Source: Thiobacillus sp. (GTDB taxonomy: Bacteria > Pseudomonadota > Gammaproteobacteria > Burkholderiales > Thiobacillaceae). From it: a stretch of 64,000 nt of DNA. The notes below the pieces were generated by a model. It saw nothing but the letters and a program-made list of their open reading frames with translations. It did no database searches and was not told where the DNA came from. Numbering within the stretch: position 1 is the first letter of the stretch; each line of letters starts with the position of its first letter. The position numbers and the translations under genes are program-made. Shown piece after piece: positions 7,269-9,193 of the stretch. The stretch spans positions 62,001 to 126,000 of the forward strand of contig NZ_JAUYRI010000033.1 of NCBI RefSeq assembly GCF_030696885.1, read 5' to 3'.

Positions 7269-7482
7269 CGGTCATCCCGCCCTGCATCGGTGGGCAAACA
7301 TACATCGGAAAACGCCCGCGTCCGGGCGAGCAGCAGCATGCACAAATCATCGACCGCATTGTGCCGGTTTTGCCACCGCGAAACCACGTCATGCCCGATC
7401 CTGACGCGGCGCCCGGTCACGCGGGTTTCGCGTGCGCGCCACGGACCGATACAATCGGCCTCTTTTGACGCAAGGACACACC

Positions 7483-8052
7483 ATGCCCAAGATCCTCGCC
7501 CTGTCCGGCAGCATTCGCCGCGACTCCTGGAACCGCAAGCTCATACAGGCGGCCGTGGAGGCGGCCCGCGCCGCCGGCGGCGACGTCACCCTGATCGATC
7601 TCGCCGACTACCCGCTGCCGCTGATGAACGAGGACCTTGAAGCCCGCGACGGTCTGCCCGACAACGCGCAGCGACTGAAGGCGTTGTTCAAGGAACATGA
7701 CGCCCTATTGATCGCCAGCCCCGAATACAACAGCTCGATTCCGCCGCTGTTGAAGAACACGCTCGACTGGGTGTCGCGCGAATGGCAGGGCGAATCGGGG
7801 CTGGTGCCCTATCAGAACAAGGTCGCCGCCATGCTGGCCGCATCGCCCGGCAGCTTCGGCGGCATGCGCATGCTGCCCCACCTGCGCCAGGTGCTGAACA
7901 CGCTGGGCGTGCTGGTACTGCCGGGCCAGTTTTCGCTGGCGCATGCAGACAAGGCCTTCGACGAAGAGAGCGGCGCGCTGAAGTCGCCGGCGCGCCTGCA
8001 CGCGCTGGTGCTGGAACTGGTCAACATCACCGCTGCGCTGAATCGCGCCTAA
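7483..8052 (+). CDS. NADPH-dependent FMN reductase
   Basis: A 189-residue flavodoxin-fold reductase. The N-terminal FMN phosphate loop (GSIRRDSWNRKL) and the family signature around residue 82 (SPEYNSSIPPLLKNTLDW) are clear. Members reduce FMN, quinones or metal oxyanions with NAD(P)H in the cytosol; which substrate applies cannot be read here. The ATG at 7483 has an AAGGAC 7-8 bp upstream and matches the family N-terminus, so an upstream in-frame start at 7432 is rejected. A TACAAT hexamer at 7450-7455 is a plausible -10 box. Confidence 0.9.
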   Translation: MPKILALSGSIRRDSWNRKLIQAAVEAARAAGGDVTLIDLADYPLPLMNEDLEARDGLPDNAQRLKALFKEHDALLIASPEYNSSIPPLLKNTLDWVSREWQGESGLVPYQNKVAAMLAASPGSFGGMRMLPHLRQVLNTLGVLVLPGQFSLAHADKAFDEESGALKSPARLHALVLELVNITAALNRA

Positions 8053-8073
8053 AAAAATGCGCCCCGAAGGGCG
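8051..8073 (-). terminator. Distal copy of a tandem intrinsic terminator
   Basis: Read on the minus strand: a 5-bp CGCCC/GGGCG stem with a TTCG tetraloop (8073-8060), two bases, then seven T (8057-8051). It lies just after the stop of the convergent FMN reductase gene and backs up the stronger copy at 8081-8103. Confidence 0.75.
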
Positions 8074-8080
8074 GCAAGCT

Positions 8081-8103
8081 AAAAAAAGCGCCCCGAAGGG
8101 CGC
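8081..8103 (-). terminator. Proximal copy of a tandem intrinsic terminator
   Basis: Read on the minus strand: a perfect 6-bp stem GCGCCC/GGGCGC closed by a TTCG tetraloop (8103-8088), followed immediately by seven T (8087-8081). UUCG loops on G+C stems with a U-tract are a textbook intrinsic terminator. It lies 70 bp after the stop of the small gene at 8173-8421 and supports that gene being transcribed. On the plus strand there is no U-tract, so it should not terminate the FMN reductase mRNA efficiently. Confidence 0.85.
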
Positions 8104-8172
8104 AAGGAGGAGACACACGGCTGCAGAGCGGCAACCCAGGGTTGCCAACGAAACATCGCTGCTGTCGGCGGG

Positions 8173-8421
8173 TCAGGCCGGCAGGGACGGCGATCTCAGA
8201 AAGGGGGCAAGGGAAGGCGACAAGGCGGCTGCCCCACCGCTGTATGGCTGGGCGACAGCCTGCTCAGACAGCCGCTCGGCGCCCGCGGGGGCGGAAAAGC
8301 CGAATCCGGCCAGGGCGGCGGCGATCAAGGCGAGGCCGAGGGCGAGGCCCGGCACGCTGCCGGCACGGTAGGAAGAACGGGGATCGGTCGAGCGGACGGG
8401 AAACGGACATTGATGTGACAT
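8173..8421 (-). CDS. Small single-span or exported protein under c-di-GMP riboswitch control
   Basis: Encodes 82 residues. A polar N-terminal stretch of about 22 residues is followed by one hydrophobic segment (about residues 22-43) ending in small residues (APAGA), then a Ser/Ala/Pro-rich tail. It is either a signal peptide or a single membrane anchor. The ATG has an excellent AAAGGAG 7 bp upstream. Upstream lie a c-di-GMP-I aptamer and a sigma-28-like promoter; downstream are two tandem terminators. That context is why I call it real despite its size. No family recognised. Inference: a monocistronic gene tied to the motile/sessile switch. Confidence 0.7.
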   Translation of the reverse strand: MSHQCPFPVRSTDPRSSYRAGSVPGLALGLALIAAALAGFGFSAPAGAERLSEQAVAQPYSGGAAALSPSLAPFLRSPSLPA

Positions 8422-8463
8422 GGCGGGCTCCTTTAATCAAGACACTGCCTGATCGGGGTGCGA

Positions 8464-8478
8464 CGCATGCCACATGCG
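8464..8478 (-). promoter_or_regulatory. Hairpin between riboswitch aptamer and gene (possible expression platform)
   Basis: A perfect 6-bp inverted repeat (CGCATG and CATGCG, three-base loop) lies about 10 nt after the aptamer and about 35 nt before the ribosome binding site. It is not followed by a U-tract, so it is not an obvious terminator. It could be part of an alternative fold that exposes or hides the AAAGGAG. Confidence 0.4.
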
Positions 8479-8486
8479 GACTTTCT

Positions 8487-8567
8487 TGGCGGCCCCGCTG
8501 TCTTGGATTCAAGACCGGAAGCTTTGCGTCCCCGCCTCGCGACGGGTTTGCCCTTGTACAGGTTACC
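8487..8567 (-). ncRNA. Cyclic-di-GMP-I riboswitch (GEMM-I aptamer)
   Basis: On the minus strand the conserved GEMM-I elements occur in order. AGGGCAAACC is followed by a hairpin CCGTC/GGCGG capped by a GCGA (GNRA) tetraloop. Next come GGGACGCAAAGC, a TTCCGG joining segment, a second helix GTCTT/AAGAC, and the closing AGCGGGGCCGCC strand. Spacing and conserved bases match the family (Vibrio Vc2-like). The upstream GGTAACC extension may pair with the 3' strand. The RNA would start almost at the predicted sigma-28 transcription start and leads into the 82-residue gene, which begins 65 bp downstream. Whether ligand turns the gene on or off is not evident. Confidence 0.93.
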
Positions 8568-8571
8568 AACA

Positions 8572-8598
8572 GTAACGTCGATTTTTCGACAAACTTTA
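8572..8598 (-). promoter_or_regulatory. Sigma-28 (FliA)-like promoter
   Basis: On the minus strand TAAAGTTT (8598-8591) is identical to the FliA -35 consensus. After exactly 11 bp comes GACGTTAC (8579-8572), which agrees with the FliA -10 (GCCGATAA) at 5 of 8 positions and keeps the central CG. The predicted start falls at about 8565, right at the beginning of the c-di-GMP aptamer. The spacer contains a perfect inverted repeat GTCGA-AAAA-TCGAC (8590-8577). Confidence 0.65.
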
Positions 8599-8657: not shown

Positions 8658-8696
8658 CCCATCAAAAAGCCCCCGAAACGGGGGCTTTTTGATGGG
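8658..8696. terminator. Bidirectional intrinsic terminator
   Basis: An 18-bp perfect inverted repeat with an AAA loop. The G+C core is CCCCCG/CGGGGG, flanked by A5 on one side and T5 on the other, so both strands give a G+C hairpin with a U-tract. It sits 15 bp after the stop of the minus-strand gene at 8711-9100, which it should terminate. It also insulates the sigma-28/riboswitch unit from read-through. Confidence 0.92.
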
Positions 8697-8710: not shown

Positions 8711-9100
8711 TTACTGCGGCAGCAGCCGGTCCTTGGCCACGAAATACTTGCGGGCAAACGCCACCAGCTGCGCGTCGCTCGGATGATCCACAGTTTCCAC
8801 GCCGATCACGCGCGCGCTGGTCGCGGGGTCGTGGCTGTGGATGTGCTTGATCAGTTCGAGCTTGGCCTGCCCCGGTCCGACGATCAGGATCTCTGTCGCG
8901 CCGGCCAGCGCCTCGACGACCTCGTGATAATAGTGCGGGTCTTCGGCTTGGCGGCTGCCGCTGACCGAGCCCCGCTTGCGGTGCAGGTTGCGGTGCGGCG
9001 AGGCCGGGCTGACCACCGATTTCTCGACGTCATCCGGGCTGATGTGCATGATGCGGGCTTCGTTGTGGTCGAGCCAGACGACGGCATGGTAATGAGACAT
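8711..9100 (-). CDS. Conserved small protein ('translational machinery protein' type)
   Basis: Encodes 129 residues starting at the ATG at 9100, which has AAAGGAA 4 bp upstream; longer frames to 9169 lack support. The N-terminus (MSHYHAVVWLDHNEARI) and the EILIVGPGQAKLELIKHI segment resemble small proteobacterial proteins often labelled translational machinery or eRF1-like protein. The GxGxAKxxL pattern recalls the eRF1/Pelota C-domain fold. Biochemical function is unknown. It is followed by the bidirectional terminator at 8658-8696 and lies 93 bp downstream of acs, from which it could be co-transcribed. Confidence 0.75.
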   Translation of the reverse strand: MSHYHAVVWLDHNEARIMHISPDDVEKSVVSPASPHRNLHRKRGSVSGSRQAEDPHYYHEVVEALAGATEILIVGPGQAKLELIKHIHSHDPATSARVIGVETVDHPSDAQLVAFARKYFVAKDRLLPQ

Positions 9101-9193
9101 GATTTCCTTTCGCGCGTGAGTAAAAAGACCAACGGCTCTTAATATTGCGCGCTTGCGCAGTAAATTCAAGCCCCGATACGCGCCCCCGCCGCT

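Follow-up and report, generated by a model that had tools for sequence, protein, structure and literature searches.

Organization of the Locus

The window analysed here is a stretch of 64,000 nt from a Thiobacillus sp. genome (3.0 Mb, 99.8% complete, labelled G000), and all position numbers are those of this window. On the minus strand, between 8598 and 8060, a sequence-only reading had described a FliA-like promoter, a complete GEMM-I aptamer directly behind it, a small single-span protein with a strong ribosome binding site and two terminators, with a bidirectional terminator upstream. A −35-like element of a sigma-28-type promoter, TAAAGTTT, is read directly at 8591–8598 (minus strand), and a −10-like element, GACGTTAC, is found at 8572–8579 (minus strand) after a spacer of 11 nt. 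T[AC]AAGT is retained in relatives at the former position, and relatives mostly show G[ATC]CGTTA at the latter. From this arrangement, transcription would be expected to start near 8565 on the minus strand. An inverted repeat within the promoter, GTCGAAAAATCGAC (8590–8577), was considered as a regulator site with FleQ-like half-sites and was rejected, since the repeat is broken in several relatives whose promoter ends are retained.

The aptamer (8484–8561, minus strand) is followed by the expression platform and ribosome binding site (8422–8483), which by direct reading include AAAGGAG at 8434–8428, and by an open reading frame of 82 codons (8421–8173) for a single-span protein of 82 aa, as had been described. 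The translation divides into two parts. Codons 1 to 46 (8284–8421) form a conserved leader, a signal-sequence region that is homologous to the N-terminus of a subtilase and is the selected part of the microprotein; codons 47 to 82 and the stop codon (8173–8283) form a variable tail that is unconserved among relatives. As read from the sequence, the leader comprises a cytoplasmic stretch of 24 residues (CPFPVRSTD..R..YR.G..PG), then a membrane span, and last an end that resembles a signal-peptidase site. The 82-aa product has no match in Pfam or NCBIfam.

Two tandem UUCG-loop intrinsic terminators with terminator-like stems (8103–8088 and 8073–8060, minus strand) end the unit, and an inverted repeat of 18 bp, accompanied by runs of A and T and read directly at 8658–8696, is a probable bidirectional terminator insulating it from the upstream gene; both findings agree with the sequence-only reading. 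This upstream gene, here called BAE-like (8711–9169, minus strand, 152 aa), has no Pfam match above the cut-off. On the other side lies a convergent gene for an NADPH-dependent FMN reductase (7432–8052, plus strand, PF03358). Both flanking genes serve as syntenic markers: among 37 regions the FMN reductase gene is found on the same side in 31, the BAE-like gene in 21, and both in 19.

A c-di-GMP-I Riboswitch Directly Behind the Promoter

The aptamer at 8561–8484 matches RF03167 (c-di-GMP-I-GGC) over the full model (1–80) with 64.9 bits, the gathering score being 59. The check proposed earlier, a search with the parent family RF01051 on the minus strand, gave 62.3 bits (gathering score 35; model 1–87), this match being the lower-scoring overlap within the same clan. 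The aptamer thus resembles the Rfam c-di-GMP-I riboswitches in full-length matches above curated cut-offs, and the locus differs from them in its target gene, a protease leader. In c-di-GMP-I structures, a G in the ligand pocket distinguishes c-di-GMP from cGAMP as ligand. The focal aptamer has this G (GGC before AAAC), which points to c-di-GMP rather than cGAMP.

In G000, two aptamers exceeded the cut-offs and a further match was weak, and RF03167 matches were present in 30 of 41 genomes, G000 included. Outside the aptamer, no conserved fold appeared in the consensus fold of 28 of the 30 aptamer-bearing leader RNAs (G023 and G046 were omitted, as they fall outside the promoter pattern used for cutting the RNAs), and the direction of the switch could not be read from these 28 RNAs. 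Some sequences suggested that the 3′ end of the aptamer might pair with a GGCAG further downstream; this idea was discarded, as inspection of the alignment showed no covariation.

Homology of the Small Protein to the Leader of a Subtilase

We read the DNA at 51 of the 54 RF03167 places together with the frames behind them. In several genomes the same promoter, aptamer and protein start (M..HCPFPVRSTD and alike) run into long frames. The 82-aa product and the entire G007 protein of 610 aa were used to search 56 genomes of the genus, and 36 regions plus the window were read. This gave 39 leader copies in 36 of the genomes: 13 long copies (two of them open at a contig end), 4 partial copies, 20 short copies of 44–84 aa and 2 copies fused to another protein. 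In the relatives with the long form, promoter, aptamer and the first ~46 residues lead into a thermitase-like subtilase of ~610 residues. The long protein of G007 comprises a propeptide, a Peptidase_S8 domain (PF00082) and Ig-like domains, and thermitase (1thm) is the best solved relative of the long protein. The focal protein shares up to 71% identity with the protease leaders over 47–65 residues, the cytoplasmic stretch included.

The sequence-only reading had not recognised the protein. Its description as small and single-span stands, and the protein can now be placed as the N-terminal leader of a subtilase of which relatives still have the full-length form; the conservation of the frame in related genomes, which had been left to be checked, is confirmed. 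While the long form resembles thermitase-type subtilases in propeptide and catalytic domain and carries Ig-like repeats, the focal gene lacks all three and has the leader alone. As the 82-aa product contains no PF00082 catalytic domain, it is by its sequence not a subtilase, merely a homologue of a subtilase leader. Only one other match to the protease was found in G000, and this is distant (30% identity).

In G364, which belongs to another family, promoter, aptamer and leader are followed by a frame of 649 codons whose start resembles that of the protease. This suggests that the long form is ancestral. The leaders of two long copies, G011 and G063a, are strongly diverged. Homologous records that bear names are mostly from Thiobacillus, T. 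thioparus DSM 505 among them, and among the matches listed the named proteins are called "hypothetical protein", one with a protease-like piece being called thermitase. A Thiobacillus-type locus is also present in a MAG record titled Rhizobium sp. (JAIBEL010000007.1, L175), which is probably mislabelled.

The unit is dispensable, since no copy was found in 20 of the 56 genus genomes, some of which are incomplete. Neither promoter nor aptamer nor leader had left a relic at the 19 sites that we examined beside the FMN reductase gene (17 of the 20 copy-less genomes plus G019 and G043, whose fusions lie elsewhere). The BAE-like gene accompanies 15 of these empty sites, and some of the stretches were short (498 bases in G050).

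Long and Short Forms Have Interchanged Repeatedly

A tree of the two flanking genes from 33 genomes implies at least 10 interchanges between long and not-long forms, and 5 (short) or 6 (long) of the changes are required by branches with good support. The backbone of the tree is weak and the long and short labels cluster no more than they do after shuffling, so the number of changes is approximate; either frequent change or tree error could produce unclustered labels. Intermediates are visible: G003 retains residues 1–162 of the protease, and G012 and G021 retain residues 1–87 and 174–221. Tandem arrangements of one long and one short copy occur in G044, G045 and G063, and duplication may thus be the source of some short copies.

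An aptamer over a cut-off accompanies 30 of the 39 leader copies (long 13/13, partial 4/4, short 13/20, fusions 0/2). Of the seven short copies lacking an aptamer, four (G020, G051, G055 and G057) retain promoter and open leader. The claim that promoter, riboswitch and protein form a single regulated unit stands in so far as the three are conserved in relatives, and it needs to be qualified in that the unit is divisible, with 7 of 20 short copies lacking an aptamer above threshold.

Apparent Exchange of the Leader with Ordinary Signal Peptides

An ordinary Sec signal peptide consists of an n-region, a hydrophobic core and a signal-peptidase site, and the sequence of the n-region is unconserved. 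The leader has such a core and an A-x-A-like end, but its n-region (residues 1–24) shows a mean identity of 74%. In another exported family, most of the 101 members start with an apparent ordinary signal peptide, and seven (P0121–P0123, P0125, P0126, P0140 and P0204) start with this leader instead. The replacement in 7 of 101 proteins argues that the leader seems to be an exchangeable export signal, with a cytoplasmic part that is unusually conserved.

In the two fusions (L141 and L144, in G019 and G043), the leader heads an unrelated protein of 274–277 aa with a double-glycine-like LDRMRGGF motif, and most relatives of this fusion protein have an ordinary signal peptide in the position of the leader. 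A likeness of the R...R and G.S..G residues of the leader to a PilZ motif was too weak and was left out.

Selection on the Leader and Slow Change of the Control Region in Short or Broken Copies

Selection was assessed in five pairs of short or broken copies, with 32 substitutions in the leader. Leader codons 2–46 carry 23 synonymous and 9 nonsynonymous changes over 177 and 498 sites, respectively (pN/pS 0.14, binomial p 9e-8). The tail carries 18 synonymous and 29 nonsynonymous changes (pN/pS 0.62, p 0.075), and leader and tail differ with a Fisher p of 0.0056. For comparison, pN/pS of the FMN reductase gene is 0.10 over five pairs. Two of the pairs are not clean short-only pairs, as G044b/G045b stand beside a full protease and G012/G021 are recently broken; without these two, the leader p is 7e-6 and the Fisher p is 0.042. 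The sisterhood of G016 and G041 is weakly supported on the tree.

In four pairs we also counted changed sites along the locus. Promoter, aptamer and platform change slowly in these lineages of short or broken copies, with 1 of 108, 8 of 307 (5 of them in one pair) and 5 of 271 sites changed. In the leader, 5 of 360 sites are changed at codon positions 1 and 2 and 17 of 180 at position 3; in the tail, the corresponding numbers are 22 of 220 and 14 of 110. The 3′ flank has 54 of 348 sites changed, 41 of the 54 stemming from one pair, hence the tail was taken as comparator. By these substitution rates control region and leader behave as a working gene, and the tail does not. The focal lineage has no close sister and can be compared over long distances only (codons 2–35: pN 0.15–0.24, pS 0.41–0.58); residues 36–46 of the focal protein have drifted.

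A public protein set yielded 194 matching clusters of this size among the 7989 best candidates scored. All 120 clusters listed of these 194 keep the leader, most of them with unrelated tails, whose ends are not necessarily true stops; protease-like pieces follow the leader in 14, and one other tail is common to 3. In 117 of the 120 clusters, which were compared in pairs, mean identity is 71% for the leader and 13% for residues 47–70, and Cys5 is present in 117 of 117. For 27 long-form clusters, a biased sample since the search used words of one leader, the values are 78% and 24%; leaders of short forms thus show no greater conservation than those of long forms. As the short copies were found by leader homology, the universal survival of the leader is partly a matter of ascertainment. 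The leader nevertheless looks to be selected at the amino-acid level after truncation, and not to be junk.

These data support the view that the unit is probably the surviving regulatory head of a secreted-protease gene, and that the leader most likely is a working membrane microprotein. Alternatively, the locus may be a decaying pseudogene: the short frame would be what erosion has so far spared at the 5′ end of a protease gene after its breakage, and promoter and aptamer would still be there only owing to the recency of the breaks. The parallel truncations with visible intermediates would fit such decay, and so would the drifting tails, the missing aptamer in 7 of 20 short copies, the 20 of 56 genomes without a copy and the protease-like pieces still present in 14 of the 120 clusters listed. 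We nevertheless regard it as unlikely: where both members of a pair share a truncation, the tail changes several times faster than leader, promoter, aptamer and platform, the leader is kept throughout the 120 clusters listed, and promoter and open leader are kept in four of the seven aptamer-less short copies.

A leader that heads an exported protease and replaces the signal peptide in members of another family should also export the tail behind it, which raises the question of whether the tail past the signal-peptidase site is the product, a short secreted peptide for which the leader merely provides export. This is very unlikely, given that the tails evolve near-neutrally and are mostly unrelated across the clusters listed, and that the conserved cytoplasmic stretch exceeds the needs of an export signal. 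The slow change of aptamer and platform in the pairs would likewise be expected if the 5′ transcript, with aptamer and the start of the frame, acted as a regulatory RNA and the frame were of little matter. A function at the RNA level is highly improbable, however, since third positions of the leader change freely and positions 1 and 2 hardly change, and all seven aptamer-less short copies retain the leader. Finally, a novel envelope protein under sigma-28 and c-di-GMP, resembling the protease leader by convergence of signal sequences, is hardly credible: it reads as a stand-alone frame with its own ribosome binding site and terminators and has no Pfam or NCBIfam match, but the extent of identity to the protease leaders, which includes the cytoplasmic stretch, together with the same promoter, aptamer and neighbours and the intermediates already contradicts this idea.

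Sigma-28-Type Promoters and Flagella

The consensus for sigma-28 (FliA) promoters is TAAAGTTT and GCCGATAA with a spacer of 11 nt. The focal promoter shares the −35 element and the spacer exactly, while its −10 element, GACGTTAC, agrees in 5 of 8 positions (GNCGTTAC as against GCCGATAA). With the 11-nt spacer, 31 of the 39 leader copies reach a score of at least 11 of 12 in a scoring pattern derived from these same sequences. The promoters of G015 and G065 fit with a 12-nt spacer as read from the sequences, G046 and G060 score 10, and no promoter was found for G019, G043, G044b and G045b in this scoring of the 39 copies. The FliA-like promoter claimed earlier is thus present in its elements and kept in relatives, but the hexamers occur at chance level genome-wide: TAAAGT-N15-CGNTA has 6 sites in G000 versus 9 for the reversed control, and the genome-wide scan was discarded as proof of a sigma-28 regulon, being unusable alone.

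In the genus, TTAACTTT-N11-GACGATT lies upstream in 27 of 30 flagellin-type loci, in the same layout as the focal promoter, which indicates that a GACG-type −10 element is at home in this genus. Two genes of G000 exceed the cut-off for FliA-family sigma factors (TIGR02479); a match is present in 56 of 56 genus genomes and is over the cut-off in 55. Most genomes have two such genes, and several genomes without a flagellin match show just one, plus a divergent FliF. A sigma-28-type factor, possibly the product of either gene where there are two, would use the focal promoter.

The unit does not track flagella. Among the 56 genus genomes it occurs in 7 of 11 without and in 29 of 45 with a flagellin match, thus without association; that it is also present in genomes without a flagellin match sets it apart from known sigma-28 (FliA) promoters. 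The AND-type control at the motile/sessile switch proposed in the sequence-only reading is at this stage a hypothesis.

The pairing of promoter and aptamer recurs at other loci, a finding that goes beyond the earlier claims and lends the sequence-only reading additional support. All 21 DUF1631-type riboswitch loci examined (one assigned by Pfam, the others by the same protein start) carry a sigma-28-like promoter 46–47 nt before the aptamer, with an 11–12-nt spacer and 12–15 of 16 matches versus about 9 in mononucleotide shuffles. For aptamers before the tested DUF1540-type and PEP-CTERM-like proteins, promoter scores were no better than those of shuffles.

G000 itself has a second strong c-di-GMP-I aptamer (G000:C15:110972-111064, L031) before a 747-aa DUF1631 protein, and 46 nt upstream of this aptamer lies a near-consensus sigma-28 promoter, TCAAGTTT-N11-GCCGATAG. 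Other c-di-GMP-I aptamers (L038, L040 and L044) precede short Cys-rich proteins of the DUF1540 type (L040 by Pfam) and have no sigma-28-like promoter. Weak c-di-GMP-I-like matches below the cut-off (31.7 and 37.8 bits) are found before PEP-CTERM-like exported proteins (G000:C19:36637, L032, and L048). G000 also contains a second flagellar-like gene set (G000:C24:88324 and G000:C28:194030; L159 and L145) with a divergent FliF and its own FliA. By our reading of the sequences, apparent genes for FliG/H/I, FliO-R, FlhB, FlhA and FlhF belong to it. The set persists in relatives without a flagellin match and is possibly a flagellin-less export system.

Discussion

In our interpretation, a sigma-28-type RNA polymerase would transcribe the unit and the aptamer would be the first part of the RNA to fold. 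The aptamer is predicted to bind c-di-GMP, and binding may alter expression of the leader frame. The leader would insert in the membrane with its conserved part on the cytoplasmic side. In the probable ancestral form, it would export a thermitase-like subtilase with Ig-like domains; G000 and many relatives would have lost the protease body and retained promoter, leader and, mostly, aptamer. We infer an independent role for the microprotein.

Neither the riboswitch class nor the promoter type is new. As far as a search of the open-licence literature shows, three findings are new: where the protein comes from, that it has survived as a leader under selection, and that sigma-28-type promoters are repeatedly paired with GEMM-I aptamers in the genus. 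Among open-licence papers, judged by titles and the starts of abstracts, we recognised none on this leader, on a c-di-GMP riboswitch of Thiobacillus, on a subtilase controlled by a GEMM aptamer or on DUF1631 in connection with c-di-GMP. The accessible part of one paper mentions GEMM and FliA, but apart (PMC2996986). The nearest known system is ZmpI (CD2830) of Clostridioides difficile, which the accessible part of its description presents as a secreted zinc metalloprotease repressed by c-di-GMP via a class-I riboswitch (PMC4591827). Common to both loci are a class-I c-di-GMP aptamer before a secreted protease and a link of surface proteolysis to c-di-GMP; ZmpI is an intact zinc metalloprotease, whereas the focal locus is of the subtilase type and has the leader alone left (PMC4591827, accessible part). 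By analogy with this protease only, we lean towards the view that high c-di-GMP lowers expression of the focal unit.

Signal sequences are usually seen as disposable, and here one seems to have outlasted the exported protein several times, with its control region. A more far-reaching formulation, for and against which we see the chances as balanced, is that of a signal sequence turned gene: a membrane microprotein of 46 residues, whose cytoplasmic part has CPFPV as an invariant motif, would have arisen from a subtilase leader, been repeatedly freed from the enzyme and been kept by selection along with its sigma-28-type promoter and, in most cases, the c-di-GMP riboswitch, and the pairing of promoter and GEMM-I, shared with the unrelated DUF1631 gene, would be a recurrent dual-input circuit. 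Microproteins under riboswitch control would in this view form a new family, linked to the decision of the cell to swim or to settle, and the repeated pairing would represent a compact natural two-input switch. The natural truncation series makes the function of the leader alone testable. The locus is also a warning for annotation, as a reading from sequence alone mistakes the short form for an orphan.

Beyond the genus, in other families of the order, c-di-GMP-I aptamers (L151 in G040 and L152 in G036) precede apparent S8 proteases with unrelated leaders, so control of proteases by GEMM-I may extend beyond Thiobacillus.
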